Shown: in pieces, positions 6,824 to 53,009 of the stretch
Layout of the letters: each line of letters begins with the position of its first letter
Numbering within the stretch: the stretch's first letter is position 1
Source of the DNA: Oscillibacter ruminantium GH1
GTDB taxonomy: Bacteria > Bacillota > Clostridia > Oscillospirales > Oscillospiraceae
DNA: 64,000 nt
Assembly (NCBI RefSeq): GCF_000307265.1
Contig: NZ_DF158899.1
Span: 124,001-188,000, forward strand
Reading direction: 5' to 3'
The notes under the pieces: generated by a model
Databases searched by the model: none
The model's input: the letters and a program-made list of their open reading frames with translations, nothing else
Told to the model about the DNA's origin: nothing
Made by a program: the position numbers and the translations under genes

Positions 6824-6852
6824 TTGCTTTGATGGATCAAGTATATTATAAA
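6824..6852 (+). promoter_or_regulatory. Sigma-A promoter for the carboxyltransferase gene
   Basis: TTGCTT (6824-6829), 17 bases, TATAAA (6847-6852), about 80 bases before the start at 6935. Confidence 0.6.
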
Positions 6853-6934
6853 TAAGTCAGAAGTGCAACCAACGATTTGATTTGTGAAAAGCGCCAAATT
6901 TGACGCAGAATATTTTAGAACGGAGAAAACTGAC

Positions 6935-37312: not shown

Positions 37313-37510
37313 TTACAGGGACTTCTCGTAGGACTCGATCATCTTCTTGACCATCTGGCCGCCGACAGAACCGGCCTCGCGGGCGGTGATGTCGCCATTA
37401 TAGCCTTCCTTCAGGTTGACGCCAACCTCGGAAGCAGCCTCCATCTTGAACTTATCCATGGCAGCACGGGCCTCGGGCACGTTGATCTTGTTGTTATTCT
37501 TGTTAGACAT
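37313..37510 (-). CDS. Alpha/beta-type small acid-soluble spore protein
   Basis: 65 residues beginning MSNKNNNKINVPEARAAMDK, with the family motifs KMEAASEVGVNL and GDITAREAGSVGGQMVKKMI. These proteins coat spore DNA, forcing an A-like form and protecting it from UV, and are later degraded by the GPR protease (site near MEAASE). It shows that the organism is an endospore former. AAGGAG lies before the ATG, and a possible forespore promoter lies upstream. Confidence 0.96.
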   Translation of the reverse strand: MSNKNNNKINVPEARAAMDKFKMEAASEVGVNLKEGYNGDITAREAGSVGGQMVKKMIESYEKSL

Positions 37511-37892: not shown

Positions 37893-39494
37893 ATGATTCG
37901 AGTCATCGTCGCAGACGACGAAGAAAAAGTCTGTCAACTGATCTGCCATCTGATTGACTGGGAATCTCTGGAGATGGAGTTGGTGGGAACCGCCTCCAAC
38001 GGCATTGAGGCTCTGCGGCTTATTCAGGAAAAGCAGCCGGATCTGATCCTTTCAGATATCCGAATGCCCGGATGCAGCGGGTTGGAGCTGATGAAGCAGG
38101 CCAGAGAATACGATCCGGATCTGGAGTTTATCATTATCAGCGGTTACTCCAGCTTTGAGTATGCCCAGACCGCCATTCAATATGGCGTGCAGGACTATAT
38201 TCTCAAGCCTGTCAATCAACAGTTGCTGAACGCCACGCTGCAAAAGGTCCGCAAGCGATATTTGAAAAAGCACTCGGACGGCTCCGACTCTCTGGAGGGT
38301 GCGCAAGCCGATCTCCTGAAAATGATCTGGTTTGACTTGGAGAATGGCAGCGTTCCCTCCACAATGGAAGAGGTCAACAAAAAGTATTACGCTCACTTCC
38401 AGCCGGGTGTTTTCCAAGTTTTCTGCATTCAGGAATCCTTTAAGGATTTCCAGACCATCGGGATTCCCTATGCGCAGTCGGTCTTCGACCTGCTTCTCCC
38501 TCTGGCGGAAAACAGCTTGGGGGAGCTGATTCGTCCGCTCTGCCATGAATTCAGTATGGTCGCCCGGGGACGGCAGATTTTTGGCATTTTAAATTATGCG
38601 CCGCAAAATCGGGAACAGCTGCAAGCGGCTCTGACCCGCGTCATCAAGGAGCTGCGGATGGAAATCCACGCCTTTGAGCGCATTGAACTGCTTCTCAGCG
38701 TTGGCAAAGAGTTCACATCTATCTCTCAACTGGGCGAATGCCGTCAGCAGGCGCAGTACGCGATGGGGCAACGGCTTCTGTTGGAAAAAGTTCCCGTCTT
38801 TCTGTCCGAAATTCCAGAATTGGAAAACACGGACAACGAGGCGCTTTTCCACCTGTTCAGCGCGGCGGTTCAGGAGGGAATCACGCTGCAAAGCGAAGAT
38901 CAAATTTGCTTTGCTATTCAAAATTTAGAGAAAAAAGTCCTGCAAAGCGGCATATCCGGACACCAGATTCTTCACATCGTGAAGACCGCTTATCACCTCT
39001 TTCTTCTATCCGGCCTTTTTCAAAATGAACTGCGTTTCTCCCCCGCCGGAGAGCGGGAGTCCTGTTTCAACGAACAGGCCGACCTGTGCGGCCGGGTTGA
39101 AGACCTTTTCCGCCTGTTGGAGGCCAACTGTCTGCGCGATTTGCAAGAGGCCGGAAAATGGATGAAGCGGGAGAAAGTCCGCCCCATCAATGAGGCAAGG
39201 CAGTATATCACCGAGCATTATGCCGAACCGCTCAATCTGGATGGCGTATGTTCCCAAGTAGGACTCAGTCCCAATTATTTCAGCACCCTGTTCCGCAAGG
39301 AGACGGGCAGAACGTTTTTAGAATATCTGCTGGAAATCCGCATCAACGCCGCCAAGGAACTGCTGCGGGGTACAAAGCAGACGACGGAGGCCGTGTGCGA
39401 GTCCGTTGGAATCCACGACTACAAACGGTTTTCCAAAGCGTTTAAAAAGGCCACCGGCGTCAGTCCCAAGGAATACAGGAATCTTTATTCCTAG
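37893..39494 (+). CDS. YesN-type response regulator (REC + AraC helix-turn-helix)
   Basis: 533 residues. Receiver domain 1-120 with acidic pair DD8-9, phospho-acceptor Asp55 (LILSDIRMPG) and Lys in DYILKPV; a middle region of ~290 residues without clear motifs; AraC-type double helix-turn-helix at the end (LNLDGVCSQVGLSPNYFSTL and TEAVCESVGIHDYKRFSKAF). YesN regulators usually switch on sugar-uptake and glycan-use genes. First gene of a three-gene unit; GAAGGAGA lies nine bases before the ATG. The probable target is the convergent sugar operon (inference). Confidence 0.92.
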   Translation: MIRVIVADDEEKVCQLICHLIDWESLEMELVGTASNGIEALRLIQEKQPDLILSDIRMPGCSGLELMKQAREYDPDLEFIIISGYSSFEYAQTAIQYGVQDYILKPVNQQLLNATLQKVRKRYLKKHSDGSDSLEGAQADLLKMIWFDLENGSVPSTMEEVNKKYYAHFQPGVFQVFCIQESFKDFQTIGIPYAQSVFDLLLPLAENSLGELIRPLCHEFSMVARGRQIFGILNYAPQNREQLQAALTRVIKELRMEIHAFERIELLLSVGKEFTSISQLGECRQQAQYAMGQRLLLEKVPVFLSEIPELENTDNEALFHLFSAAVQEGITLQSEDQICFAIQNLEKKVLQSGISGHQILHIVKTAYHLFLLSGLFQNELRFSPAGERESCFNEQADLCGRVEDLFRLLEANCLRDLQEAGKWMKREKVRPINEARQYITEHYAEPLNLDGVCSQVGLSPNYFSTLFRKETGRTFLEYLLEIRINAAKELLRGTKQTTEAVCESVGIHDYKRFSKAFKKATGVSPKEYRNLYS

Positions 39495-39565
39495 GGCAAA
39501 CTCTGTGCGGTGTTGCCCTAGAGCAAACTCTATGAATCGCGGCAGTATAGGAGGGGAGGCCGGAA

Positions 39566-40555
39566 ATGAAAAAGCATAAAAGTTTTTTGGAAACGCGTCT
39601 TTTGATTTTTCGGGTCGCGTTTTTCATCCTGTTTCTCGCCCTGCTGGCTCTGGCGGCAGCCGCCGCCTACCATACCCGCTGGTTTCTGCCGATTCTGCTG
39701 GTTGCTTTTGCCGCGGTCGCCTTGATTCCACTGGAGTTTTTCTTCCTGTGGAAGCCCTATTGGAATGAGACGAAGCGGCTTGGTCTGGCAGCGTCCACTC
39801 CAGAGCTGGCCGACCTGCCCTCGCCAAAATACTACTATAATCGGCAATACGGCTATTTTATCGAGCGGTTGAGCGCCACTTTAAAAGCCACAGACTCCTT
39901 TGAACTCAGCAAGCGGCAGGCGCAGTATCAGGCTCTGCAAAATCAAATCAATCCACATTTTCTTTATAATACGCTGGAGAGCATCCGCAGCGAGGCGCTG
40001 ATCTCGGGTCTTGGCAGCGTGGCGGAAATGTGTGAAGCGCTGGCCTCCTTTTTCCGCTATACCATCAGCAATCAGGCGGACGTGGTCACTGTGGACGAGG
40101 AACTGCAAAACATCAAGACCTATTTTTATATCCAGCAGTACCGATTTGGCAACCGGCTCTCCTTGCACATCGACTACGACGAGGAGGACATGGATTCCTT
40201 AATCCGGTGTAAAATTCCCAAGCTGACGCTGCAGCCCATTGTGGAAAACGCCATTATCCACGGGATCGAGCAAAAACTGGGGGATGGCAGCGTCACCATC
40301 AAACTGCTGCTAACGGAGAGATGTCTGCTCATTCGGATTTCAGACGACGGCGTGGGCATGGCCCCGGAAATTCTGGAAAAGGTGAATCAGCGCATCGCGG
40401 GCAACTCTCCCCCAGGAACCGGAAAGGGCGGCATTGCCATTGCCAATGTGAACAACCGCATCCATCTGCTTTTTGGCGACACTTACGGGATGATCGTCTA
40501 TTCCACCTTGGGCGCGGGGACCGATGTGGAAATCTCGCTGCCCCGTCCCGCCTGA
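39566..40555 (+). CDS. YesM-type histidine kinase lacking an extracytoplasmic sensor
   Basis: 329 residues. Two adjacent membrane helices (about 13-34 and 39-62) joined by only a few residues, so there is no outside sensing domain, unlike typical YesM. Then the His_kinase domain with NQINPHFLYNTLES (His131) and the ATPase lobe QPIVENAIIHGIEQK, ISDDGVGMA, GKGGIAIANVNNRI. It should phosphorylate the response regulator encoded 71 bases upstream. Its signal must come from within the membrane or from a partner protein. Confidence 0.92.
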   Translation: MKKHKSFLETRLLIFRVAFFILFLALLALAAAAAYHTRWFLPILLVAFAAVALIPLEFFFLWKPYWNETKRLGLAASTPELADLPSPKYYYNRQYGYFIERLSATLKATDSFELSKRQAQYQALQNQINPHFLYNTLESIRSEALISGLGSVAEMCEALASFFRYTISNQADVVTVDEELQNIKTYFYIQQYRFGNRLSLHIDYDEEDMDSLIRCKIPKLTLQPIVENAIIHGIEQKLGDGSVTIKLLLTERCLLIRISDDGVGMAPEILEKVNQRIAGNSPPGTGKGGIAIANVNNRIHLLFGDTYGMIVYSTLGAGTDVEISLPRPA

Positions 40556-40572
40556 AGAAAGCGGAGGCAGCT

Positions 40573-42042
40573 ATGAGAAAAGAGATTTTTCGGATGGATC
40601 ACGTCCTTTACGCGGAAAACGGGCAGACCCATCTGAACGACCTGAGTATGCAGATATTTCAGGGAGAGATCTATGGTATGCTGCGGCTGGAGCGACATGG
40701 CGGAGCAGAGCTGTTCAAGCTGATCGCTTTGAACGAGCCGATCCGAAACGGTCATGTGTTCTTTCAGGATCAGCTGGTCAACAGTCCCGGCCCTCATCCC
40801 GTCACCCAAAACAAGGTCGCTATCATTGACAGTACCAGCCGCTTGATCAACAGTTTGTCCCTTGCGGACAATCTTTTCGTCATTCGTCCGGGTTTTCGCA
40901 AATTTTACGTGCGGGAGCGGGAACTGCAAGCGCAGACGGAGCAGCTTTTCCAACAGTATGACATCCGCCTGCCCCAGCAAATGCTGGCAGGACAGCTGAA
41001 AAACTATGACCGGCTGGTGATGGAACTTCTCCGCGCCATGACCGCTGGAGAGCTTCTGGTGGTGCTGATTGACATTCCGGATTTGCTGGGCAGTGAGGAA
41101 CTGGCTGCGTTTCATCAGCTTTTGAAACGGTTGGCCCAAAATGGGATGACCTTTCTTTACGTCTATAACCACCACGAAGCGCTGCGAAAAATCTGCGACC
41201 GCATCGCTGTTTTCAAAAAAGGCCGCATAGAAAAAGTGGTGGATCGAAGCTCCGATCTGAATCAGCACATTCGCGTTTTGGCCAAGCCCGCCTATGAGGC
41301 TCTGCTGCGTCTGGGGCAGGCAGACAGCGAGTCCAAGCGCCCCCGCGGAAAGCCTGTCCTGCGGTTGGAAAACATCTGTCGGGGCGGTTTGGATCACTTC
41401 AGCCTTGAAATCTGTTCGGGAGAGACACTCCTTCTCATCGACCGCAGCAACACGGTTCTGGACGATCTGATGGGTCTTTTCGAGGATTTGAAGCAGCGCG
41501 TGCCTGTTCCCGGCGTTGTGGCCTGCGGCAAAGAATTGAGCGATTTGCGATTGGGCCTGTTGGATCGTTTGCCCTCTCGAACGGGACTTTTTCCGGACAT
41601 GAGCGTTTTGGACAATCTCTGCTTTGCCCTGGGGGAAAAAGTCCCCCGCATCTGGCGCAAGCAGCGGCTTTTAAACAGCGTGGCCAAGGAATACCGTCCG
41701 GAGCTGGGGGATCTGCTGGATGAACAACAGCTCTACGATCTGCACACACAGGATTTGTATACGCTGGCCTACTATCAGTATCTGATTGCAAAGGCAGATT
41801 TGGTGGTCTGCCTCCAGCCTATTTCCGGGCTGGATATGTATCTGCGGCCCCACACGCTCCGCCTGATCTCCAAGCTGCGCAGCAGCGGCATTCCCGTGCT
41901 GCTGCTCTCCACCGATCTTTACGACACGCTGTATGTGGCGGATCGGGTTTTGTGGGTGGACGGCGGGAAAATCGCGCTGGCCAAAACACCGGATGAGTTT
42001 CATGAGCTGCGCCTTTTACAGGAGGACCTGTTCCCCGACTGA
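40573..42042 (+). CDS. Tandem RbsA-like ABC ATPase that has lost its ATP-binding motifs
   Basis: 489 residues, the length of sugar-importer ATPases of the RbsA/MglA class and co-linear with them, but with key residues lost in both halves. Half 1: the Walker A position (36-47) reads MLRLERHGGAEL, the signature becomes AGQLKNYDRL, Walker B LLVVLIDIPDLL lacks the Glu. Half 2: the Walker A position reads LLLIDRSNTVLD, the signature LHTQDLYTLAYY, Walker B LVVCLQPISGLD. H-loop-like HHEALRKICDRIAVFKKG is kept. It follows the kinase by 17 bases with GGAGG five bases before the ATG. It is probably a non-hydrolysing regulatory partner. Confidence 0.85.
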   Translation: MRKEIFRMDHVLYAENGQTHLNDLSMQIFQGEIYGMLRLERHGGAELFKLIALNEPIRNGHVFFQDQLVNSPGPHPVTQNKVAIIDSTSRLINSLSLADNLFVIRPGFRKFYVRERELQAQTEQLFQQYDIRLPQQMLAGQLKNYDRLVMELLRAMTAGELLVVLIDIPDLLGSEELAAFHQLLKRLAQNGMTFLYVYNHHEALRKICDRIAVFKKGRIEKVVDRSSDLNQHIRVLAKPAYEALLRLGQADSESKRPRGKPVLRLENICRGGLDHFSLEICSGETLLLIDRSNTVLDDLMGLFEDLKQRVPVPGVVACGKELSDLRLGLLDRLPSRTGLFPDMSVLDNLCFALGEKVPRIWRKQRLLNSVAKEYRPELGDLLDEQQLYDLHTQDLYTLAYYQYLIAKADLVVCLQPISGLDMYLRPHTLRLISKLRSSGIPVLLLSTDLYDTLYVADRVLWVDGGKIALAKTPDEFHELRLLQEDLFPD

Positions 42043-42108: not shown

Positions 42109-43569
42109 TTAAAACCAGGCTTTTACCGCCGGATACAGCTTTTCAAACCGTTCATACTGCTCCTGATATTTTGCAGCCAAAAGCGGGTCCGGCTCCACAG
42201 TTTCCGTCACCTGCACGATGGCATCGGCCGCCTCCTCCACAGAAGCGTATTCTCCGCAGGCTACCGCCGCCAGCATGGCGGCGCCCAGACCCGGCCCCTC
42301 TTCCGAGGCCACACGCTCTACCCGCAGATTCAGAATGTTGGCAATCATCTTCCGCCACAGGGCGCTTTTCGCACCGCCGCCGCAGATACGAGTGCTGTCA
42401 AGACGGATTCCCAGCGCTTTTGCCACCTCAAAGGAATCCCGAATGCCAAAGGAAACGCCCTCCATGATCGCCTGCGTCATATCCCGGCGGGTGGTGTCCA
42501 TCGACATGCCGATGAACATGCCCCGGGCTTTCGGGTCGTTATGAGGAGAGCGCTCTCCCATGAGATAAGGCAGGAAAAACGTGGAGTTTTCCCCCAGCCG
42601 CTCTTCCATCCCGGCCTGCTCCGCAGCATAGTCCTTGGTTCCGATGATGGAATCCATCCACCACTGGTTGCAGGATGCCGCAGAGAGCATACAGCCCATC
42701 AGGTGATACTGCCCGTCGGCATGGTCAAAGGCGTGCAGCGCGTTGCGGCTGTCCACCCGGAAGCTGCGGCTGGAGATGAAAATGGTGCCGCTGGTGCCCA
42801 GCGAAACGTTGCACCGTCCCTCCCCCACCGTGCCGGTGCCCACAGCGGCAGCGGCGTTGTCCCCTGCGCCTGCCGCCACGACACAGTTGCATTCAAGACC
42901 CAGCTGCGCGGCCAGAGCAGGTTTTACCGTACCGGTGGGCTGATAGCTTTCAAACAGCGCGGGAAGCCAGCTTTTCTCCACGCCGCACAGCTCCAGCATC
43001 TTCTCCGACCAACATTTGTGCTCCACGTCCAGCAGCAACATGCCGGACGCGTCGGAATAATCCGTGGAGTGTACACCGGTGAGCTGATAGGCGATATAGT
43101 CCTTGGGCAGCATGATTTTTGCGATGCGGGCAAAATTCTCCGGTTCCTTTTCCCGCACCCATAAGAGCTTTGGCGCGGTAAAACCGGCAAAGGCGATGTT
43201 AGCCGTGCAGGCTGAAAGCGTCTCCTTGCCCACTGTGTCGTTGAGCCAAGCGGTCTGCTCCGCCGTTCTTCCGTCGTTCCACAAAATGGCGGGGCGGATC
43301 ACTCGATCTTCCGCGTCCAGCATAACAAGGCCATGCATCTGCCCGCCAAAGCTGATTCCCGCCACCTGCTTTGCATCAAATCCGGTCAAAAGCGCCTTCA
43401 GTCCATCCTGCACGGCGCTCCACCAGTCCTCCGGCCGCTGCTCCGACCAGCCAGAACGGGGGAAGTAGATGGGATATTCCCGGGAGACTACATTGCGGAT
43501 GGTTCCGTCGCCGCCCATTAAGAGCAGCTTGACTGCCGAGGTTCCCAGATCAATTCCGATATAGTCCAT
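42109..43569 (-). CDS. xylB: Xylulokinase-family (FGGY) sugar kinase
   Basis: 486 residues. Begins MDYIGIDLGTSAVKLLLMGG (phosphate-1 loop), with GISFGGQMHGLVML, RPAILWNDGRTAEQT and VAAGAGDNAAAAVGTGTVGE, all typical of XylB. It phosphorylates a ketose, most simply D-xylulose to xylulose 5-phosphate for the pentose phosphate route. Last gene of a ten-gene operon, six bases after the D-lyxose isomerase gene, which would supply D-xylulose. Confidence 0.92.
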   Translation of the reverse strand: MDYIGIDLGTSAVKLLLMGGDGTIRNVVSREYPIYFPRSGWSEQRPEDWWSAVQDGLKALLTGFDAKQVAGISFGGQMHGLVMLDAEDRVIRPAILWNDGRTAEQTAWLNDTVGKETLSACTANIAFAGFTAPKLLWVREKEPENFARIAKIMLPKDYIAYQLTGVHSTDYSDASGMLLLDVEHKCWSEKMLELCGVEKSWLPALFESYQPTGTVKPALAAQLGLECNCVVAAGAGDNAAAAVGTGTVGEGRCNVSLGTSGTIFISSRSFRVDSRNALHAFDHADGQYHLMGCMLSAASCNQWWMDSIIGTKDYAAEQAGMEERLGENSTFFLPYLMGERSPHNDPKARGMFIGMSMDTTRRDMTQAIMEGVSFGIRDSFEVAKALGIRLDSTRICGGGAKSALWRKMIANILNLRVERVASEEGPGLGAAMLAAVACGEYASVEEAADAIVQVTETVEPDPLLAAKYQEQYERFEKLYPAVKAWF

Positions 43570-43575
43570 GCTGTC

Positions 43576-44259
43576 TCAGTCCTTTGCGGGTGGATACTCG
43601 TTGCACAGCAAACGATAGGGAGGCTCGTCCTCCTCAATCTTGGGGAAGCGACCCACCGGCTCGTAAAACCGGTTGTCGGTATTGTCGTCGTTGCACATAG
43701 AGACTTCTCCAATGAGGATGTCGCCTGTGCCCGGAACCGTGTCAAAGTCGTGGTACTGGTGGGGCCAGAGCGTAATGCTCTCGCCGGGCTTCAACTCCAC
43801 GCCGGTACCGGCGGGCACGAGATAGGAGCGTCCATCCCGGTTGACCAGCACGTCCTCCGTGGAACGGCTGCCGTCTCCGGCGTCGTTATAGACGTGGATA
43901 ATCATGGTGCCGCCGCCGCGGTTGATGATGTCCTCGCTCTTATTCCAGTGGAAGTGGCAGGGGAAACGCTGACCCTCCTTGAGCATGATGAGCTTTTCCG
44001 CGTAAACCTTTTTGTATTTCGGGTTGTTCTGGTTTCCGTTGCGCAGGGTGATGAGGGCAAAGCCCACCTTGTCGAAATCCTCCAGCCCGCAGTCCGTGAT
44101 ATCCCAGCCCAGCTGGTTATCGCGGATTTCGTCGTATTCGTGGCTCTTGTCCGCCCAATCGGCGGGAGTCCATTTGCAAAACGGCGGCAGCTCCACGCGG
44201 TGCTCCGCCAGCAGTACTTCCATGTCCCGGATGCACTGATTAATTTTTGAACGCTTCAT
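43576..44259 (-). CDS. D-lyxose ketol-isomerase family protein
   Basis: 227 residues, cupin fold. Metal-binding pattern PCHFHWNKSEDII (His-x-His-x4-Glu) and a late WPHQYHDFD (His), as in D-lyxose isomerases. These interconvert D-lyxose and D-xylulose, and also D-mannose and D-fructose more weakly. The ATG at 44259 has AAGGAG eight bases upstream. It is followed directly by a xylulokinase gene, which supports a pentose pathway. Confidence 0.88.
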   Translation of the reverse strand: MKRSKINQCIRDMEVLLAEHRVELPPFCKWTPADWADKSHEYDEIRDNQLGWDITDCGLEDFDKVGFALITLRNGNQNNPKYKKVYAEKLIMLKEGQRFPCHFHWNKSEDIINRGGGTMIIHVYNDAGDGSRSTEDVLVNRDGRSYLVPAGTGVELKPGESITLWPHQYHDFDTVPGTGDILIGEVSMCNDDNTDNRFYEPVGRFPKIEEDEPPYRLLCNEYPPAKD

Positions 44260-44288
44260 ATTGTTTCTCCTTTTGCCCAAAGGGCGGC

Positions 44289-45308
44289 TCAGATGTGGTC
44301 GATGAAGTTCAGCCGGGCTTGATAGGTCTTGCTCTCCCCGGGTCCGAGGATCGGCGCGGCACAGCCCGGCTCGTCCACCTTCGGACCGTCCAAAAAGACG
44401 TTCATCGGCTCAAGACCCATGACGTACTCTCCCTTGCCCAGCATCTTCCACTGGCAGAAAAACGGCAGGTCCTCTCCGCTGTATCGAACATTCACGCCAA
44501 TGCCCCGCTTCTCGTTGAACAGGGTGTACTGCACCATGCCGTCCGCGTCTTGGCGGAGCTTATGGAAATAGCACCGCTCCGGATACGGATACTGGGGCGC
44601 TTCAATCTGCTGCCAAGAAGACAGGTACTTGGCGGCATTCTCCTCCCGGGGCGCTGTCTCCTCGCTGTCAAGAATCAGCTTGCAGCCCTCTTCCAGCAGA
44701 GGATAGCCGTAATTCAAATGCAACGCGTAAAGCACCTGACGGTTGCCGAATCCGTGGTTCGTGATGGTGTCGGTCAGGAGGATGCTGTCCTCCCCGTGAA
44801 CAAATTCCAGCTTTCTGTGCAGCGTCAGATTCTCGCCGAAAATGCGGGCCTCCCGCATGGTGCCCTCCAGCGTCAGCGTGGGGATTTCTCCCCGGAGACC
44901 CCGGGCATACTTCACATTCTCCGCCGGGGTATTGGCAATTCGGCCATGAAGGCCCAGCTCCTCGCCGTTCTTCGTCTGGGGATTGCCAAAGTGCTGCAAG
45001 CCGCAGGTGGTCAGCATGCCCACAAAGAAATTGCGCAGCCAGCGGGTCCCCTGTGCGTCGTAATACTCCGGGGCCACGATTCCGCAGGGCGCCAGATAGT
45101 TCATGTTCTTGCCCTTATAGCGCACCTGATAGATATCCATGCACCGCCCCGGCAGAACTGTGGCGGAGAGATTGCCGCCATTGTCCACATCCATCACGCG
45201 AACACCATCCTGAAATCCGCCGGAGAGCACGCCCTCCCGCAGGGACATCAGTTGGTTCAGATCGCCGATATACTCCAATTGTTTCTGATAGCTCTGGCCC
45301 ATGGCCAT
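44289..45308 (-). CDS. DUF4432 protein (aldose-1-epimerase-like fold)
   Basis: 339 residues. Galactose-mutarotase-like beta-sandwich of the DUF4432 family: ATVLPGRCMDIYQVRYKGKN, THE conserved GLHGRIANTPAENV and LNYGYPLLEEG. Members lie in sugar-use operons and are thought to be epimerases or mutarotases; none is firmly assigned to my knowledge. Start at 45308 with GGAGG seven bases upstream (a second ATG two codons later is possible). Seventh-to-eighth position of the operon, between the PfkB kinase and the isomerase. Confidence 0.85.
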   Translation of the reverse strand: MAMGQSYQKQLEYIGDLNQLMSLREGVLSGGFQDGVRVMDVDNGGNLSATVLPGRCMDIYQVRYKGKNMNYLAPCGIVAPEYYDAQGTRWLRNFFVGMLTTCGLQHFGNPQTKNGEELGLHGRIANTPAENVKYARGLRGEIPTLTLEGTMREARIFGENLTLHRKLEFVHGEDSILLTDTITNHGFGNRQVLYALHLNYGYPLLEEGCKLILDSEETAPREENAAKYLSSWQQIEAPQYPYPERCYFHKLRQDADGMVQYTLFNEKRGIGVNVRYSGEDLPFFCQWKMLGKGEYVMGLEPMNVFLDGPKVDEPGCAAPILGPGESKTYQARLNFIDHI

Positions 45309-45380
45309 ACTCCTTCCTCCGGCCCTAAGCCGGAAACCGCTGCGTTCCATTCACTCCCGGTATTTTTCCGGGAGATACGT

Positions 45381-46319
45381 TTATGCGTGCGCCGCCAAAA
45401 ATTCCTCAACCTCTGCCAGAGAGGGGGCGCCTTCCATGGGGCCCTGCTTGCGCACGGACATGGCACCCGCCGCATTGGCGAACCGGCCGCACTCGGCAAG
45501 ACTCTTTCCGGCGATCAGCGCCGTCAAAAACGCGCCGCAGAACGTGTCGCCTGCGCCGGTGGGGTCCACCTCTTCCACGGAAAAGCTGGGAACATCCAAA
45601 ATCTGGTCACCGGAGAAGATGCGGCAGCCCTGCTCGCCGTTTTTCAAAACCACGGTTTTCCCCTGACTTGCCCAGATGCCGCAGCCCTCATCGTCGGTAG
45701 CCGCGCCGGTAAACATCATGGCCTCGCCCTTGCTGGGGAAGATCATGCTGGAGCGTTCCAGCACCGGCATGCACAGCGCCTTGATTTCCTCCACACTCAG
45801 CGCCTCGGGCCGAATGTTGGGATCGAAGCAAATCTGCGTATCCGCCGGCAGCTCCCGCACCAAACGGTGGATGGTGTCCGCCGCGCCGTGGCTGACGGAC
45901 ATGGCAAAGCCCGTGATATGGAGCCACTTGGTTCCCTGAAGCTTCTCCAGATGGATGTCCTCGGCGGACATCATCCCCGGCGCATCCTGATGGACGTGAT
46001 AGATAAAATTCCGGCTGCCGTCATGGAAGTAGCACACAAAGGCAACGCCTGTGGCGGCTTCGGGGTGAACGCGCACCATGGAGCAGTCCGCTCCGCTCTC
46101 CTGTAACCGGTTGACGATGCAGCGGCCAAAGCCGTCGTCACCGACCACACCGATCATGGCGCTGTTCGCACCCAGCTTGGCCGCGGCATTCAGCATAATG
46201 CCGGAATCACCGCTGGGATAGGGGCCGGTAAAATCCGCCGCAGTGTCCAAAGGCTTATCCAGCTCCTTGCGCATGACCTCGCACAGCAGCGCGCCGATGG
46301 AAACGATATCGTATGCCAT
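45381..46319 (-). CDS. PfkB-family carbohydrate kinase
   Basis: 312 residues, ribokinase fold. Substrate-binding GPYPSGDSGIMLNAAAKLGA, and the anion-hole and base motif DPTGAGDTFCGAFLTA at the C-terminus. Related to fructokinase, 2-keto-3-deoxygluconate kinase and tagatose/fructose-phosphate kinases; the sugar cannot be told. Start at 46319 (MAYDIVSIGALL), 22 bases after the YjbQ gene stop. In the operon it is the second sugar kinase, besides xylB. Confidence 0.9.
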   Translation of the reverse strand: MAYDIVSIGALLCEVMRKELDKPLDTAADFTGPYPSGDSGIMLNAAAKLGANSAMIGVVGDDGFGRCIVNRLQESGADCSMVRVHPEAATGVAFVCYFHDGSRNFIYHVHQDAPGMMSAEDIHLEKLQGTKWLHITGFAMSVSHGAADTIHRLVRELPADTQICFDPNIRPEALSVEEIKALCMPVLERSSMIFPSKGEAMMFTGAATDDEGCGIWASQGKTVVLKNGEQGCRIFSGDQILDVPSFSVEEVDPTGAGDTFCGAFLTALIAGKSLAECGRFANAAGAMSVRKQGPMEGAPSLAEVEEFLAAHA

Positions 46320-46341
46320 ATTCAGTCCCTTTCCTTTCCAA

Positions 46342-46770
46342 TCATTCGCCGATAATGTCCACGAAAACCTTCCGAGCCTGCGGCCCGTCAAATTCCATGA
46401 ACACGATCTCCTGCGCCTCGCCCATGCAGGCCTTTCCGTTCACCAAAGACAGCGTGGTGCTGTTTCCCACCAGAATGGAGCGAAGATGGCCGTAAGCATT
46501 GGCGCTGGTGCGGCCATAGGTGGGCAGGAAGTGGGCGTGAGAATACTCCGCGTCGTCGTCCACCAGCCGGTGGAGCAGAACGTTTAAGTCGCTTAAAATG
46601 CAGTCCAGCGGCTCTGTGACGATAATTCCGCAGTTGGTGTGCGCCGTCACCACGGAGACAATGCCGTTTTGCACGCCGGACTCCGCAATAAACGCCTTGA
46701 CCGTGTCACCGATATAGGTGGTGTAATACTCGTCCTCCGTCGTGACGAAAAATTCATAGTGCTTTACCAT
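46342..46770 (-). CDS. YjbQ-family (UPF0047) protein
   Basis: 142 residues. YjbQ fold with SVVTAHTNCGIIVTEPLD, YSHAHFLPTYGRTSANAYGH and VNGKACMGEAQEIVFMEFDG. Described as secondary thiamine-phosphate synthase by suppressor work, but its true role is uncertain; clustered His suggest metal binding. Its ATG shares one base with the stop of the amidohydrolase gene (TAATG), so the two are coupled. Its placement in a sugar operon suggests action on a sugar-derived acid or lactone (inference). Confidence 0.88.
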   Translation of the reverse strand: MVKHYEFFVTTEDEYYTTYIGDTVKAFIAESGVQNGIVSVVTAHTNCGIIVTEPLDCILSDLNVLLHRLVDDDAEYSHAHFLPTYGRTSANAYGHLRSILVGNSTTLSLVNGKACMGEAQEIVFMEFDGPQARKVFVDIIGE

Positions 46771-47624
46771 TACGCTTCCTCCAGTCCCAAAAAGCTCGCC
46801 GCGTTGCCGCCCAGAACCAGCTCCCGCTGGTGGGGGCGCAGAGTCAGGGAATCCACTGCCTTGCGCATCCGCTTTTGCTCGATGCGGGGGTAGGTGGAGC
46901 CAAAGAGCACCTTGTCAAACAGCATCCGGTCGATCCAGTATTCGCCCAAGTCGGTTTTAAACGTGTGTTCAAAGAACTGAACCGGAGAGTCGAAATACAG
47001 CAGGGCGGTGTCAGCATACAGATTCGGATATTTCAGAACCAGCATGGCCGTCTCCCGCACCCACGGCCAGCCAAAGTGGCCCATGCACATTTTCAGGTCC
47101 GGGTGAGCGATGGCCACATCCTCCAGCAGCAGCGGATTGCCGTACCGGGACGGGCTGTCCTTCACCCAAGTCATGCCGGACTCAAAGAGAATCGGCTTGT
47201 TGTACTTCTCACAGATCGCGTAAAGCGGCTCCATCATGGCGTCGTTGGGCATAAAGCGCTGGATCGCGGGACTGAGCTTCAGGCCGGAGAGCTTCAGCTC
47301 TCCAAACGCCTTTTCCAGAACCTGCGCCGCATCCTTGCGCCAAGGGTCCACGCTGGCAAAGCCGATCAGCCGATCCGGGCACAGATCCACCAGCTTGCGA
47401 ACCTCCTCGTTGGAGACGATGGTATCACCCGCACGAGTGGTCACGTCCTCCGCGGAGATTACGGATTTATCAATCCCCGCCGCATTCATCTGGAGCACGA
47501 AAAGGCTCAGTGGCCAAACGTGCTGCTTATACAAAAAATACTGTTCCCGGCGGAACTCCACCCGCTTGGGGTCCTCGCAAATCTCTTCCAGAAAGCCGGG
47601 GAACGCGTGCATATCGATTACCAA
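46770..47624 (-). CDS. Amidohydrolase-fold (COG2159-type) metal hydrolase or decarboxylase, TTG start
   Basis: 284 residues. TIM-barrel metal hydrolase with VIDMHAFPG at the start (a His-x-His-like first ligand that here is only Met-His), RLIGFASVDPWRKDAA, GLKLSPAIQRFMPND, MCMGHFGWPWVRE and LFGSTYPRIEQKRMRKAV. Relatives are lactonases, decarboxylases and amidases. Start: TTG at 47624, eight bases after GGGAGG (47638-47633); the nearest ATG is four codons later. The first strand lacks the full HxH pair, so metal content may be unusual. Confidence 0.82.
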   Translation of the reverse strand: MVIDMHAFPGFLEEICEDPKRVEFRREQYFLYKQHVWPLSLFVLQMNAAGIDKSVISAEDVTTRAGDTIVSNEEVRKLVDLCPDRLIGFASVDPWRKDAAQVLEKAFGELKLSGLKLSPAIQRFMPNDAMMEPLYAICEKYNKPILFESGMTWVKDSPSRYGNPLLLEDVAIAHPDLKMCMGHFGWPWVRETAMLVLKYPNLYADTALLYFDSPVQFFEHTFKTDLGEYWIDRMLFDKVLFGSTYPRIEQKRMRKAVDSLTLRPHQRELVLGGNAASFLGLEEA

Positions 47625-47666
47625 AATGATTTCCTCCCATCTATTTTTCCGGGTTTCACACACGCA

Positions 47667-48962
47667 TCAGCGTGTGGCGTGGATATAATCCTCTGCGAAC
47701 GTTACAACGCAGTCCTTCACCAGTTCCCGCGCATCCATGGGGAGCTGTCCGTCCCGGACCTTGGGGTATTGCAGGGGCATATATTGGTGCAGCATGCTCA
47801 GGGGAATTTCCACCTTCTGCATCCCTGCGATCAACTGATCCATCGCCGCTTTCACCTCGGCGTCGGTCAGGTAATATCGAATTCGGTCGGAGAAGCTGAA
47901 TCTGCGCTTCACGGCCTGCTGCAATTCGTCGCCGTGATAATACTTCTTCCAATTCTCCGGGTGCTCCAGCATCACGCGTTCCAGCGTATCTGCAAAATAA
48001 GCGCGCTGCCCCTCGGGCAGCAGGACACGTTCCATCATGTCCAGAGCAAACAGGCCCTCTCTCAGGCCAAAGGTCAATGCAGGGCCAACTTTTAAAATGG
48101 CAATGCCATCCTCCACCATCTCGCGCAGCGCCTCGGCGGGCTGATAGTCGGTGGAGTGGCCCTCCAGAACAATGCCGTCCAGCTTTTTCGCGGCAGCGGT
48201 CAGTTCCTTGGCCTTGGCGCGGTTATAGCGGAAAAAGTCCGCGTCCCCGAACTCCACGCCGGGCTGCACCACCACGCCGATTACATTTTCAAACCCGTCG
48301 GCATAACCCGCCGCGGCAAACGCCTTGCGGTAGGTTTCCACAGTTTTATTGAGCGCCGCAGGATCGGTGACGGCGATAGAGCTTTCCGCCTCCTGTGCGC
48401 CGCCGGGAATGGGCACTTCGCTGCCCACGATATACACGGGCCGCACCTCATCTGGATTTTGTGCCCGCAGTGTCTGATACGCCTCCTCGCAGGCGGCATA
48501 CAGCCGCGCGCCCCGGCGGGCAATTGTCTCGTCCGTCAGCGGTTCATTCCGGGGGTCGTCCGCCACGCGCATACTGGTATCCAGATGGATCTTTTTAAAG
48601 CCCGCCAACACAAACAGGCGCACCAGTTCCTCCGCCTTGTCCATCGCCTGTGCCTCGGGTTCGTTCTGCCATGTGAGCGGTCCCAGATGGTCGCCGCCCA
48701 GAATGATATTTTCACGGGGGTAGCCGATACGGTCCGCAATCTCACAGACAAAATCCCGGAAATCAACGGGGCGCATCCCGGTATAGCCGCCAAACTGATT
48801 GACTTGGTTCGCGGTAGCCTCTACCAGAACCACCTGATGGTCCCGCAGGGCACGCTGCATGCACGCTTCGATCACCAGTTCGTTCGCCGTGCAATAGCTC
48901 CCAATGCCGCAAACCTCGCCCTGCTTCCGCCGGGCCACCATATCGCGCAAATAATCTTTCAT
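47667..48962 (-). CDS. GatZ/KbaZ-family D-tagatose-bisphosphate aldolase-type protein
   Basis: 431 residues. Typical segments: GIGSYCTANELVIEACMQRA, LVEATANQVNQFGGYTGM, ILGGDHLGPLTWQ, KKIHLDTSMRVADD, LEGHSTDYQPAEAL. Classically the non-catalytic partner of the class II aldolase GatY/KbaY; some family members act alone as ketose-phosphate 4-epimerases (from memory). No GatY/KbaY gene is in the window, so an independent epimerase or other lyase is more likely here. It stands between the binding-protein gene and the amidohydrolase gene. Confidence 0.88.
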   Translation of the reverse strand: MKDYLRDMVARRKQGEVCGIGSYCTANELVIEACMQRALRDHQVVLVEATANQVNQFGGYTGMRPVDFRDFVCEIADRIGYPRENIILGGDHLGPLTWQNEPEAQAMDKAEELVRLFVLAGFKKIHLDTSMRVADDPRNEPLTDETIARRGARLYAACEEAYQTLRAQNPDEVRPVYIVGSEVPIPGGAQEAESSIAVTDPAALNKTVETYRKAFAAAGYADGFENVIGVVVQPGVEFGDADFFRYNRAKAKELTAAAKKLDGIVLEGHSTDYQPAEALREMVEDGIAILKVGPALTFGLREGLFALDMMERVLLPEGQRAYFADTLERVMLEHPENWKKYYHGDELQQAVKRRFSFSDRIRYYLTDAEVKAAMDQLIAGMQKVEIPLSMLHQYMPLQYPKVRDGQLPMDARELVKDCVVTFAEDYIHATR

Positions 48963-49148: not shown

Positions 49149-50135
49149 TTACCGGAAATCAGCCACGTTGTCCTTGTTGACAACGCTGGCGCCGGTGTCC
49201 ACATCAGTCTCGCCGATGTCGCCGCCGGTAACGGCATTGTAAGCGGCATAGACAGCGCCGTAACCCATGTTATACGGATTCTGAGCCATCACGCAGTACA
49301 AAGAGCCGTTCTCAACCATGTCCATGGTCGTGTCGGAAGCGTCGAAGCCGACGGCCACGCCATTCCAGTTGGGGTTGGCGGCGGCAGCGTTGCCCACGCC
49401 GACAGCGCCGGGCTCGTTGTTGCCATAGACGCCCACAACGCCCTGAGAGATGAAGTTCTCAGCAGCAGCCTGAGACGCGGCAACCTCAGAGTTGCCATAC
49501 TGGGTCTCCAGCAGGTTGAACTCAGTGCCCTCGAACGCGTCGCGGAAGCCCTGCTCACGATCAACGGAAGTCTGGGTGGCGTTGGAGAAAGCAACGATGC
49601 CGATATCGCCGGAGGTGATGCCCTTCTCCTTCAGACCGGCCAGCATCTGCTCGCCAGCCTGCTTAGCAGCGGCATAGTTGTCGGTGGTGAACTTTGCCAC
49701 AGCGTCGAAGTTGGCGGTGGAGTCGGCATAGACGATCTTGATGCCGGCGTCAGCCGCGCTCTGCAGAGTGGAGACAATCGCGTCGGGATCCACAGCGGCA
49801 ACAACCAAACCGTCGCACTGAGCAGCAACAGCATTGTTCAGCATTTCGATCTGCAGTGCGGTGTCCTTCTTGTCGGGAGCCATCCACTGATACTTAATGC
49901 CGAGTTCAGCTGCGGCGGCCTGAGCGCCCTTGTCCACGTTGACCCAGTGGTTGTCCAAACCGTCCATGGTAACCAGAATGATGCTCACATCCTGTGCGGC
50001 GGTGGAGCCTGCGGCGGAGCCGGATGCAGAGCCGGAAGCGGCGGAACCGCTGCTGGCAGAGCCGGTGCTGCCGCACCCAAAGAGCGCGGTGGACATTGCA
50101 AGAGCCATTGCGAGAGCCAATACTTTCTTTTTCAT
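49149..50135 (-). CDS. Sugar ABC importer substrate-binding lipoprotein (RbsB class)
   Basis: 328 residues. Lipoprotein signal with lipobox LFGC (Cys21), a low-complexity Gly/Ser/Ala linker (22-47), then a type-1 periplasmic-binding fold (VSIILVTMDGLDNHWVNVDK; CDGLVVAAVDPDAIVSTL; GVYGNNEPGAVGVGNAA; GFDASDTTMDMVENGSLY). The class binds pentoses, hexoses or polyols. It follows the permease gene by 80 bases and is separated from the enzymes by a hairpin. Confidence 0.92.
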   Translation of the reverse strand: MKKKVLALAMALAMSTALFGCGSTGSASSGSAASGSASGSAAGSTAAQDVSIILVTMDGLDNHWVNVDKGAQAAAAELGIKYQWMAPDKKDTALQIEMLNNAVAAQCDGLVVAAVDPDAIVSTLQSAADAGIKIVYADSTANFDAVAKFTTDNYAAAKQAGEQMLAGLKEKGITSGDIGIVAFSNATQTSVDREQGFRDAFEGTEFNLLETQYGNSEVAASQAAAENFISQGVVGVYGNNEPGAVGVGNAAAANPNWNGVAVGFDASDTTMDMVENGSLYCVMAQNPYNMGYGAVYAAYNAVTGGDIGETDVDTGASVVNKDNVADFR

Positions 50136-50215
50136 GATTCTTCTCCTTGTTATTTTTTTGGACCGATATTTCAGTCCTTATATCAAAGCCCTTCGGGCTT
50201 TAATATCCACTGTTT

Positions 50216-51214
50216 TTACGCTTTTTTGATCTTCTTTCTGCTGCTGCGGGCCACCACGTCCATCATAACCGCCAGAATGACGATGATACCGATGATGATA
50301 TTCCGCAGCGCCACAGGAGCGCCCACAAACTGCAAACCATTTTGCAGGATACCCCAGATTCCGGCGCCGGCGATCACGCCCGCCAGAATGCCGGTGCCGC
50401 CCAGTGTGGAGATGCCACCGATGACGCATGCCGCCACTGCGTACATTTCGTATGTGCCACCGGCATCCATGGTGCCCATACCGGCGGAAGCCAGCAGGAT
50501 CAGACCCGTGACGCAGGCGCAGAAAGCACTTACAACGTAGGTGATCAGGATGGTGCGGTATTCATTGATACCGGACAGACGCGCGGCATCCAGATTGCTG
50601 CCCACCGCGTAGATGTGGCGGCCGGTACGAGTCTTGCTCAGCAGGAAGTTGAACACCACCCACAAAATCACTGCGATCCACACCGCGCTGTACAGCTTGG
50701 CAAACTCGCCGTAATAAAACAGATCGCGGAAGGCCTGTGCATCGTTGCCGATGAAGTCGGTATTATGGTTGTTGTTCACCAGCTGCGCGAGTCCGCGTGC
50801 CAAAGTCATGGTGCCAAGCGTGGCGATAAAAGAGGGCAGCTTCATCTTTGCCACCAGCGTGCCGTTGACAAAACCGACCAGCAGCGCCAGAAGAACGGTC
50901 AAAAGACAGGCCAAAACCGGATTCACGCCCTTGGTCATCATAGTACCGGCAGTCATGCAGGACATACCCACCACAGAGCCGATGGAAAGGTCGATGTTAC
51001 CGGTAATCAGCACATAGCCCTGACCGATGCCGATGATCAGCGTGGGCGCGATCTGGCGGAGCAGGTTCTGGATGTTGTTGCCGGAACGGAACGAGGGACT
51101 GGCCACGGCAAAGACCACAAACAGAATCAAAAATCCGATCACCGCGGTTACCACCGAGCGGACACCGCGGGCGGACAGGGCTTGATTCAGCCGATTTGAC
51201 TTCTTTTCATTCAT
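50216..51214 (-). CDS. Sugar ABC importer permease (RbsC class)
   Basis: 332 residues, eight to ten membrane helices. Signatures LIIGIGQGYVLITGNIDLSI, GSVVGMSCMTAGTM, SFIATLGTMTLARGLA and RTGRHIYAVGSNLDAARLSG. It pairs with the RbsA-class ATPase encoded just upstream. The ATG at 51214 has AAGGAG nine bases upstream. In the model below it might also bind the ATPase-dead RbsA homologue encoded at 40573. Confidence 0.93.
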   Translation of the reverse strand: MNEKKSNRLNQALSARGVRSVVTAVIGFLILFVVFAVASPSFRSGNNIQNLLRQIAPTLIIGIGQGYVLITGNIDLSIGSVVGMSCMTAGTMMTKGVNPVLACLLTVLLALLVGFVNGTLVAKMKLPSFIATLGTMTLARGLAQLVNNNHNTDFIGNDAQAFRDLFYYGEFAKLYSAVWIAVILWVVFNFLLSKTRTGRHIYAVGSNLDAARLSGINEYRTILITYVVSAFCACVTGLILLASAGMGTMDAGGTYEMYAVAACVIGGISTLGGTGILAGVIAGAGIWGILQNGLQFVGAPVALRNIIIGIIVILAVMMDVVARSSRKKIKKA

Positions 51215-51227
51215 TGTGTATTGCTCC

Positions 51228-52727
51228 TTAGATTTTAGATTCAAACGCGGTTGCGTAAGAGAGAATTTTATCCTCAGTGGCCTCTGCCACCGGCAGTTCT
51301 CCGGTCAAATGCCCATCGCACATGACCAGAATCCGGTCGCTGATGCCCAAGATCTCCGGCAGCTCAGACGACACAAACAGTACGCCGGTGCCTTGCTGCT
51401 TCAGGCGGTTCATCAGATTGTAAATCTCCACCTTCGCGCCAACGTCCACGCCGCGGGTCGGCTCATCAAACATAATAACCCGGGAGTTTCGCGCCAGCCA
51501 CTTGCCGATGACCACCTTTTGCTGGTTGCCGCCGGAAAGGCTCTCCGCATTGATTTCAACGGAGGACAGCTTGATTTGCAGCTCCTCCACTACCTTGTCG
51601 GCAATTTCCCGTTCCTTCTTCTGGTTAACCTTGCCGATGCCGTTGCTGAGCCAGTCCAGATTGGGAATGCTCAAATTCTCCCGAACGCCCAGCTTTGTGC
51701 AAAGGCCGTCCCGCTTCCGGTCCTCCGGCGTCAGCACAATTCCGGCTTTGATCGCGTCAATGGGTTTTTTAATGGAAACGGACTTCCCATCCAAAACGAT
51801 TTCGCCGGAGTCCTTGGGGTCGATTCCGAAAATTGCCCGGGTAGTCTCCGTGCGGCCTGCACCCACAAGACCCGCGATTCCCACAATCTCACCGGCGTAA
51901 AGATCAAAGCTCACATCGCGGACCATTCTTCCCGCGTTCAGGTTCTTCACTTCCAGAATCTTTTCGCCCCGCTGGCATTGGACGCGGGGGAATTTCTCCT
52001 TGATATCCCGGCCAACCATTTTGGCGATCAGTTGGTCCATCGTATAGTCTGCGAAGTTCCCTTCCATAATAAACTCGCCGTCTCGCATCACTGTCACGCG
52101 ATTTGCCACATGGCTCAGTTCTTCCATGCGGTGCGATATGTATACAATGCCGCAGCCCTCGCTGCGAAGCTGATCCACCAGACGAAACAGTTCGTCAATT
52201 TCCTTGGAGGACAGCGCGGATGTCGGCTCGTCCATAATCAGGATTTTAGCATGGACAGACAGCGCTTTGGCGATCTCCACCATCTGCTGCTTGGATACCG
52301 GCAGGTCGCCCACCACCGTATTGGGGCTGAGGTCGATCTTCAGAGAGTCCAAAACCTCCTGCGTCCGCTTCACCATTTCCCGGTTGTTGAGCGTAACGCC
52401 TTTCCTGACCTCGCGGCCCAAAAAGATGTTTTCCGCCACGGTCAGATGCCGGCACATATTCAGCTCCTGATGGATAATGGCCACGCCCAGCTCCTGCGCT
52501 TTCTTCGTGTCCAAGTCGCCCTGTTCCTCACCAAAAATCTTCATGGTGCCGGAATCGCGAACATACACGCCGCTGAGAATTTTCATCAGAGTGGACTTTC
52601 CCGCTCCGTTTTCGCCCAGCAGCGCCATGACTTCTCCCGCTTTCAGGGTAAAGCGCACGTTCTTGAGAACCGGCACCCCTGAAAAGGATTTGTTGATGTT
52701 CTCCATTTCCACAATGTATTCGTTCAT
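51228..52727 (-). CDS. Sugar ABC importer ATPase (RbsA/MglA class), active tandem form
   Basis: 499 residues, two ATPase halves. First half: Walker A GENGAGKST (38-46), signature LPVSKQQMVEIAKAL, Walker B ILIMDEPTSAL. Second half: Walker A-like GLVGAGRTE (Lys replaced by Arg, normal for this class), LSGGNQQKVVIGKWLA, VIMFDEPTRGVD. First gene of the sugar operon; start at 52727 with AAAGGA nine bases upstream. Contrast with the degenerate homologue at 40573. Confidence 0.94.
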   Translation of the reverse strand: MNEYIVEMENINKSFSGVPVLKNVRFTLKAGEVMALLGENGAGKSTLMKILSGVYVRDSGTMKIFGEEQGDLDTKKAQELGVAIIHQELNMCRHLTVAENIFLGREVRKGVTLNNREMVKRTQEVLDSLKIDLSPNTVVGDLPVSKQQMVEIAKALSVHAKILIMDEPTSALSSKEIDELFRLVDQLRSEGCGIVYISHRMEELSHVANRVTVMRDGEFIMEGNFADYTMDQLIAKMVGRDIKEKFPRVQCQRGEKILEVKNLNAGRMVRDVSFDLYAGEIVGIAGLVGAGRTETTRAIFGIDPKDSGEIVLDGKSVSIKKPIDAIKAGIVLTPEDRKRDGLCTKLGVRENLSIPNLDWLSNGIGKVNQKKEREIADKVVEELQIKLSSVEINAESLSGGNQQKVVIGKWLARNSRVIMFDEPTRGVDVGAKVEIYNLMNRLKQQGTGVLFVSSELPEILGISDRILVMCDGHLTGELPVAEATEDKILSYATAFESKI

Positions 52728-52837
52728 TTGCCCGTTTCCTTTACTGTTCACGAGGTTTTCTTACAATTGGCTTCCAAATTTCGTGAATTCGTGATAATTC
52801 CGCCAAAAATAGTTTCCACCTGTGGCATGTTTTTTGG

Positions 52838-52866
52838 TTAGTATAGTACGAAACGGATTATTTCAA
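52838..52866 (-). promoter_or_regulatory. Promoter of the ten-gene sugar operon
   Basis: Minus strand TTGAAA (52866-52861), 17 bases, TACTAA (52843-52838); an overlapping TATACT is closer to consensus but has a short spacer. Upstream to 53010 is AT-rich, where an activator could bind. Confidence 0.5.
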
Positions 52867-53009
52867 AAGGTGCAAATCTTACGATTAGGGGGGCAATTTT
52901 TACTCAGTTTTAGCATTTTCAACATTTTGACGATAAACAGCTAATTGCTTTTGTGCATATTTCCCGTCCAAATTCTCCGTATTTTTCCATATCTCGACTT
53001 CTTTTGGTA

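Follow-up and report, generated by a model that had tools for sequence, protein, structure and literature searches.

The 64,000-nucleotide stretch of Oscillibacter ruminantium GH1 analysed here (contig NZ_DF158899.1, positions 124,001 to 188,000; hereafter, the window) lies in a genome of 3.1 Mb, and hosts, in tandem on the plus strand at 37893-42042, genes encoding a YesN-type response regulator, a YesM-type histidine kinase and a degenerate protein akin to the sugar importer ATPase RbsA. This arrangement had been noticed by inspecting the sequence, and is borne out by the open reading frames (ORFs) and by Pfam. The start codon of the RbsA-like gene at 40573 is backed by alignment with relatives; the listed ORF opens further upstream. 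Oscillibacter valericigenes is the closest relative with a name among the best 80 loci retrieved, the RbsA-like proteins being 84% identical. Genes for an active RbsA, an RbsC permease, an RbsB sugar-binding protein and a catabolic set run convergently to the three genes, from 52751 down to 42109 (Table 1). The relation of the degenerate protein to the kinase, and to this importer, is the subject of this work.

The only Pfam match of the RbsA-like protein at E 1 is a sub-threshold hit to ABC_tran (21.2 bits, cut-off 25), and the nearest NCBIfam models are of the LsrA/AraG/RbsA type, scoring far under their cut-offs (best 90.6 versus 586 bits). As reference for the motifs we took the active RbsA encoded elsewhere in the window, whose motifs are intact. 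In the first half, Walker A reads RLERHGGAE instead of GENGAGKST, the signature LKNYDRL instead of LPVSKQQ, Walker B VLIDIP instead of IMDEPT; in the second half, the signature reads LHTQDLY instead of LSGGNQQ, Walker B VCLQPI instead of MFDEPT. The second Walker A of the active RbsA is itself non-canonical (GLVGAGRTE). Measured against a functional RbsA/CUT2-type ATPase, the protein has thus lost first-half Walker A, ABC signature and catalytic Glu, and the LSGGQ-type signature and Walker B Asp-Glu of the second half. The tandem nucleotide-binding-domain fold on one chain is predicted to be present and intact (mean predicted local distance difference test score, pLDDT, 91.9; predicted template modelling score, pTM, 0.89), and proteins of ABC type are what the listed fold matches consist of.

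The same losses are found in the relatives. Signature 1, the canonical H-loop His, signature 2 and the second-half Walker B Asp/Glu are each missing in all of 85 degenerate proteins, and intact in 67/67 active partner RbsA proteins. (In the 85-protein table L033 and L105 come from one contig, and L118, L108 and L089 are without parts of some motifs.) Thirteen members retrieved by a profile search in Clostridia genomes are degenerate as well. The degenerate proteins form one clade in the tree (local support 0.999; L108, L109 and L118 were left out of A3 and of the tree, L105 of the tree). The ratio of nonsynonymous to synonymous substitution rates (dN/dS) is 0.05-0.15 across 14 pairs of degenerate genes, values which are rough because several of the pairs have dS above 1. 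The ratios indicate that the gene is under purifying selection, and rule out a decayed pseudogene. A functionless, decaying duplicate would account for the lost catalytic motifs, and hardly for selection, near-universal linkage, an intact relocated copy (see below) and a confidently predicted fold; the chance that it is correct is negligible. Judging from the motifs, the protein should not hydrolyse ATP. The original prediction of a dead ATPase stands as to the loss of motifs in both halves and the retention of the fold, less so as to an "H-loop-like" segment, since the His lies one residue off the canonical site (+1, in 79/85 proteins). The loss is conserved and non-random, as had been surmised: no protein with intact ATP sites in a YesN-YesM context has been found among the 85, the 13 found by profile and seven wider ones. 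In turn, YesM was found at none of 64 intact RbsA loci surveyed with flanks of at most 1.5 kb (71 intact RbsA, minus seven with YesM nearby, all of them partner RbsA of the gene sets described here). The 31 proteins classed as degenerate in the same survey include L120, L195 and L197, which show cut-off partner RbsA.

A scan of genome contigs with a five-protein alignment retrieved 230 relatives, and the context counts given here refer to the best 80 of 230. YesM lies directly upstream of the degenerate gene in 78/80 loci, YesN before YesM in 74/80. When restricted to loci with enough upstream room, the figures become 77/78 for YesM (exception L086) and 73/74 for YesN (exception L114), with YesM in L053 and YesN in L075 found despite short room. 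The loci without YesM are L086 and L109, whose contig starts 5 bp before the match. YesN is missing from six loci, five of which have <1.3 kb upstream, the sixth (L114) being truncated there. The association with YesM/YesN, anticipated in the original prediction, is therefore near-universal. Importer genes occur in the fetched flank of 73/80 loci, downstream in 39, upstream in 32, on both sides in 2; RbsA has been identified in 70/80 flanks, RbsC homologues in 70/80. Among the ten loci lacking a flanking RbsA, eight genomes were searched (L039 and L069 are the other two), and all eight carry a cognate RbsA elsewhere (64-70% identity). The genome of L114 was also searched, and no cognate RbsA was found beyond the locus fragment. 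In this locus (6825-7989) the start of the active RbsA abuts the truncated YesM, the outcome of either an importer-kinase deletion or an assembly error.

Many of these modules include a tandem pair of RbsB-type proteins (L064, L068, L069, L074, L076, L088 and others), and a second RbsC-like stretch is found in L040 and L100; such spare copies may belong to sensing. The record of L099, a metagenome-assembled genome, is titled Treponema sp., which may denote horizontal transfer or a binning error.

According to a simple hydropathy scan, the window YesM has two hydrophobic, putatively transmembrane (TM) segments 6 residues apart, then a short linker. Two TM segments are found in 70/79 module YesM proteins, window included, the gap having a median of 9 and a maximum of 18 residues; fewer than two were detected in the other nine, in some because the gene is cut. 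In kinases of BceAB-BceS modules this loop spans under about 25 residues. For comparison, 36 YesM loci from nine genomes were collected among the matches listed; three are module members, leaving 33. In these, the largest inter-TM gap has a median of 257 residues (24/33 measured, 9 unmeasurable), and is at or under 20 in one. The module proteins have the make-up of YesM/YesN systems, a His_kinase and HATPase_c kinase and a regulator with receiver and AraC-type helix-turn-helix (HTH), and are missing the large extracellular region between the TM helices usual in measured YesM. All 31 sensor-less kinases scanned match His_kinase and HATPase_c; neither HAMP nor any sensor domain was found in the 31 at E 0.01, though one or two kinases have scattered weak matches to unrelated models. 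The notion of a kinase devoid of a sensor is thus supported. An RbsB-like protein is found beside 5/33 other YesM (L149, L158, L161, L172, L182), as in binding-protein three-component systems.

These data bear on the possibility that the pseudo-ATPase does no more than limit uptake, by vying with active RbsA for the permease, and that its adjacency to the kinase reflects co-expression, not signalling. A brake on transport would suit the homology to RbsA and the conserved segments following the Q-loop described below. Yet, where the importer lies upstream (32/73 loci), yesN and yesM come to lie between rbsABC and the degenerate gene, which stays next to yesM; the sensor-less kinases would moreover be left without input, and no RbsA-like neighbour has been found within the flanks of the 33 other YesM loci. 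We regard a brake as very improbable.

The tie to the RbsA/RbsC/RbsB set at 49149-52751, proposed from the window alone, is supported by gene context and extends to whole genomes. A profile search at E 1e-90, independent of the DNA pattern, identified the degenerate family in 13/391 Clostridia genomes. Cognate RbsA was found in 12/391 (protein search, E 1e-190, identity of at least 59%), and 11 genomes are common to both sets. In G749 and G900, which carry the degenerate protein, RbsA is cut by a contig end and was not matched in the strict search; once these are counted, agreement is 13/13 for genomes with the degenerate protein, and 13/14 for those with cognate RbsA (two cut by contig ends). 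The strict table has a Fisher's test value of 1e-18, the corrected one of 2e-23; both are descriptive only, because the genomes are related and not independent. Linkage in the 80 loci and co-occurrence in Clostridia genomes rule out a chance neighbourhood. YesM is adjacent to the degenerate gene in 12 of the 13 genomes. In the exception, G984, an intact degenerate gene (484 amino acids, aa) lies on a contig apart from the YesN-YesM-operator-RbsABC array, which has no copy, between neighbours that we take to be isoleucyl-tRNA-synthetase-like and aminopeptidase-like. As the relocated gene is intact, the degenerate protein seems to be retained in the absence of linkage as well; from this single genome, it seems to act in trans.

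Conservation is unevenly distributed along the degenerate protein. Information per column averages 2.36 bits in the family, and rises to 3.51 and 3.18 bits in the post-Q-loop segments of the first and second half, respectively, the former value being inflated because the DNA search pattern lies within the segment. The first segment was for this reason discarded as docking evidence when taken alone, and weight is placed on the second one, free of the search pattern, and on the profile-found relatives, which keep both segments in most members. In MalK, the post-Q-loop residues lie along the permease-contact groove. Walker A regions fall below the mean (2.01 and 1.95 bits), and rank top in the active partners. 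The altered sites carry a consensus of their own, as exemplified by the second Walker B (Q 71, P 84, F 77 of 85). The latter feature would agree with an internal sensor, whose altered sites accommodate a sugar, sugar phosphate or nucleotide present inside the cell, and which controls YesM from the cytoplasm without contacting the permease. Distant relatives keeping Walker A (see below) could in fact bind nucleotide without hydrolysis, and co-divergence shows no special tie to importer proteins. The fact that the protein is strictly paired with a single importer subfamily, linked or not, and the below-average conservation of the Walker A regions argue against such a sensor, which we deem unlikely, though worth keeping in mind.

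Co-divergence was measured as distance correlation over 60 complete loci (L108 and L118 were left out). Distances among degenerate proteins correlate with those of YesN (0.91), RbsA (0.76), YesM (0.73), RbsC (0.72) and RbsB (0.63). Partial correlation is 0.76 for YesN, 0.08 for YesM, and at most 0.14 for any protein other than YesN. When YesM is divided into parts, values are 0.86 for the catalytic domain and 0.59 for the TM region. Such figures are no test of contact, because related sequences and similar rates can produce them. MalK-MalT is the model for direct control of a regulator by an importer ATPase. In a comparable manner, the degenerate protein could bind YesN and hold it inactive while the importer is idle, the kinase playing a side role. 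The whole-protein correlation, by far strongest with YesN, raised the standing of this alternative, and slightly lowered that of the explanation preferred below. The value for the YesM catalytic domain speaks against it, as does the fact that the degenerate gene overlaps YesM, not YesN (by 4 bp, in 36/78 loci); the loss of sensors by the kinases would also go unexplained. Control of YesN by direct binding is, all considered, rather unlikely.

A candidate operator precedes the partner RbsA gene. The motif consists of two A-rich/CCCC repeats one 21-bp period apart, followed by a TGNTATACT-like -10 box. By using a leave-one-out matrix, and setting the match at a score of 10 or more, the motif was identified in 54/67 upstream regions ending at the start codon, among which the window (score 36.3), and in 61/67 loci (window not counted) once the region extends 60 bases past the start; these sites are not independent, because the loci are related. 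At this score, the motif is absent from L059, L083, L105, L107, L111 and L118. It was found in 0/201 shuffled sequences and in 0/60 upstream regions of other RbsA genes (64, minus four high scorers, each sharing a contig with a degenerate gene at a distance of 6-8 kb, hence partners). The stretch 52825-52909 is the only site scoring above 2 in the window, and the window repeat pattern has a single match in the genome when up to 3 mismatches are allowed. Direct repeats of such kind are often used by AraC-type regulators. The 21-bp repeats are a candidate binding site for YesN, and the operator points to the operon of the partner importer as the probable target.

On balance, we think it probable, with some reserve, that YesN, YesM, the degenerate protein and RbsA/RbsC/RbsB make up one importer-coupled two-component system, in which the pseudo-ATPase docks on RbsC. 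The degenerate protein is most likely an adaptor coupling the state of the importer to the kinase. It would keep the tandem ATPase fold and the segments beside the permease-contact groove without hydrolysing ATP, and dock on RbsC by replacing, or exchanging with, active RbsA. The state of the permease and of the loaded binding protein would in this way be relayed to the sensor-less YesM; YesM would phosphorylate YesN, and YesN would bind the direct repeats and switch on the importer and the sugar-catabolic operon. The YesM TM region averages 27% identity, RbsC 70% (60 loci), which we read as favouring input via a cytoplasmic protein over direct contacts between kinase helices and permease. By analogy with a known operon (see below) the sugar is probably D-lyxose, D-mannose or similar. 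Several observations weigh against this scheme. L086 has degenerate gene, RbsABC and operator all present, and no YesM was found in 898 bp upstream, nor in the draft genome at E 1e-15. The degenerate protein is missing from G925, which does have cognate RbsA. Sequence searches of the PDB retrieved neither RbsA- nor RbsC-type entries (RbsC at E 1e-8). The best conserved segment owes part of its rank to the search pattern. Finally, co-divergence favours neither RbsC nor whole YesM as contact, and points more to YesN.

Related modules also occur more widely, and ten further YesM regions were examined. Four of the five kinases with frames of 335-372 aa (L185, L187, L188, L189) are followed by a degenerate RbsA of greater divergence, L186 is not; nor is any of the five with frames of 407-436 aa. 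Additional sister modules are L034 and L257/L258, which contain L221/L222. YesN and YesM precede the degenerate RbsA in all seven, and in six the fetched stretch includes another RbsA/RbsC set, whose RbsA shares 39-43% identity with the window RbsA; L258 is cut by the contig. In five of the seven sister kinases the two TM segments are separated by 10-15 residues; a single segment was detected in L188 and L189. The idea that Walker A is always lost proved too strong: L188 and L221/L222, with the same gene order, keep the first-half motif (GRNHSGKST, GLDNSGKTT) but lack the signature and the Walker B Glu. These proteins are possible ATP-binding switches. L188 and L189 branch outside the other 83 proteins (support 0.849); L221/L222 are outside the tree sample. 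We tentatively envisage a principle valid throughout Clostridia, short of likely but worth stating: a duplicate of an importer ATPase would have lost hydrolysis once and radiated into modules, every one of them for another CUT2-type importer, and each pseudo-ATPase would swap with the live ATPase on a shared permease, so that the importer alternates between a transport form and a receptor form driving a sensor-less kinase. Branches retaining Walker A may use ATP binding as the switch.

Table 1. Features of the module in the window, and related genes in other loci
Feature	Position	Strand	Details
YesN-type response regulator, 533 aa	37893..39494	+	Receiver and AraC-type HTH; ORF and Pfam
YesM-type histidine kinase, sensor-less, 329 aa	39566..40555	+	His_kinase and HATPase_c; hydropathy scan
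Degenerate RbsA-like tandem nucleotide-binding-domain protein (putative pseudo-ATPase), 489 aa	40573..42042	+	Profiles, alignment, predicted fold
First post-Q-loop segment, residues 91-106	40843..40890	+	Best conserved stretch (rank inflated)
Second post-Q-loop segment, residues 338-351	41584..41625	+	Among best conserved
Catabolic genes of the convergent operon	42109..48962	-	FGGY kinase, D-lyxose isomerase family, DUF4432, PfkB kinase, UPF0047, amidohydrolase, GatZ/KbaZ-like
RbsB-type sugar-binding protein	49149..50135	-	
RbsC-type permease	50216..51244	-	BPD_transp_2; proposed docking partner
Cognate active RbsA-type ATPase	51228..52751	-	Intact motifs
Candidate operator-promoter upstream of rbsA	52825..52909	-	Two direct repeats, 21-bp period (52865-52903); TATACT -10 box (52840-52845)
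Walker A-keeping degenerate RbsA-like genes	L188:8242-9693, L257:10309-11736, L258:335-1762		

Upstream of the module, a small gene at 37313-37510 on the minus strand, whose product presumably resembles alpha/beta-type small acid-soluble spore proteins, sits between the YesN gene and a plus-strand gene (34972-37164) whose product we take to be secreted and 5'-nucleotidase-like, with what look like SLH-type repeats at the C-terminus.

Importer-coupled signalling by kinases has precedents. In BceAB-BceS, a kinase without sensing domain reads an ABC transporter, and the regulator raises expression of the transporter (PMC10314905, PMC7828314); BceS has a HAMP domain, and Bce modules need the functional transporter itself (PMC10314905). 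The modules share with it a two-TM kinase with a short loop, free of a dedicated sensing domain, an ABC transporter putatively standing in as sensor, and a regulator that would raise expression of the transporter. They differ in having a sugar importer with a binding protein, a kinase of the YesM type devoid of HAMP, and an additional importer ATPase, catalytically dead by its motifs; the partner in the window is a BPD_transp_2 permease of the RbsC type, not a BceB-type one. For PstSCAB-PhoU-PhoR it has been proposed that a kinase lacking a periplasmic sensor reads conformations of the importer, with the aid of the auxiliary PhoU (PMC5775613). Here too an importer state would be read by a kinase with an auxiliary protein, but the kinase belongs to the YesM type, and a pseudo-copy of the importer ATPase is the candidate for the adaptor. 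PhoU is not known to have an ABC fold, whereas ABC_tran and ABC-type folds are what the degenerate protein matches.

Clostridia offer parallels as to the cargo. CuaDSR governs a sugar importer operon by a two-component system plus an extra binding protein (PMC10384115); XylFII-LytS is likewise a solute-binding-protein three-component system, and binding proteins of C. cellulolyticum have been proposed to signal via an "intramembrane-sensing" kinase (PMC3656788). Clostridial sugar importer, two-component system and one extra transporter-derived protein recur in CuaDSR, XylFII-LytS and the modules. As far as these sources go, the extra part of the former two is a binding protein that lies outside the cell and docks there on domains of the kinase; in contrast, the extra protein of the modules is predicted to be cytoplasmic, and their kinases have no extracellular domain to receive a binding protein. 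In enterohaemorrhagic E. coli, lmuKAIZYX encodes a monosaccharide ABC importer, a D-lyxose/D-mannose isomerase, a phosphofructokinase-like kinase and an aldolase, and is induced by lyxose or mannose through the two-component system LmvKR (PMC10128022). The convergent operon of the window has a similar metabolic set, which suggests the sugar without proving it. LmvK is, in contrast, a hybrid kinase with HAMP, and the covered part of the source does not mention a degenerate ATPase.

The logic of the module appears to match that of transporter-sensing systems, yet by the features tested the module falls outside both BceAB-BceS and Pst-PhoU-PhoR. Signalling by importer-coupled kinases is known; the pseudo-copy of the importer ATPase is the new part. 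A literature search covering few subscription journals and preprints brought up no account of a YesM/YesN operon with a degenerate RbsA, which is weak evidence of absence. The inputs of sensor-less kinases are often unknown, and the conserved partner described here provides a concrete candidate for an input device. A candidate target operator can be proposed for the YesN-type regulators of the module, and the gene set is defined, which makes the question testable in a laboratory host. If the scheme is true, it would show that an importer can become a receptor by means of a pseudo-ATPase.

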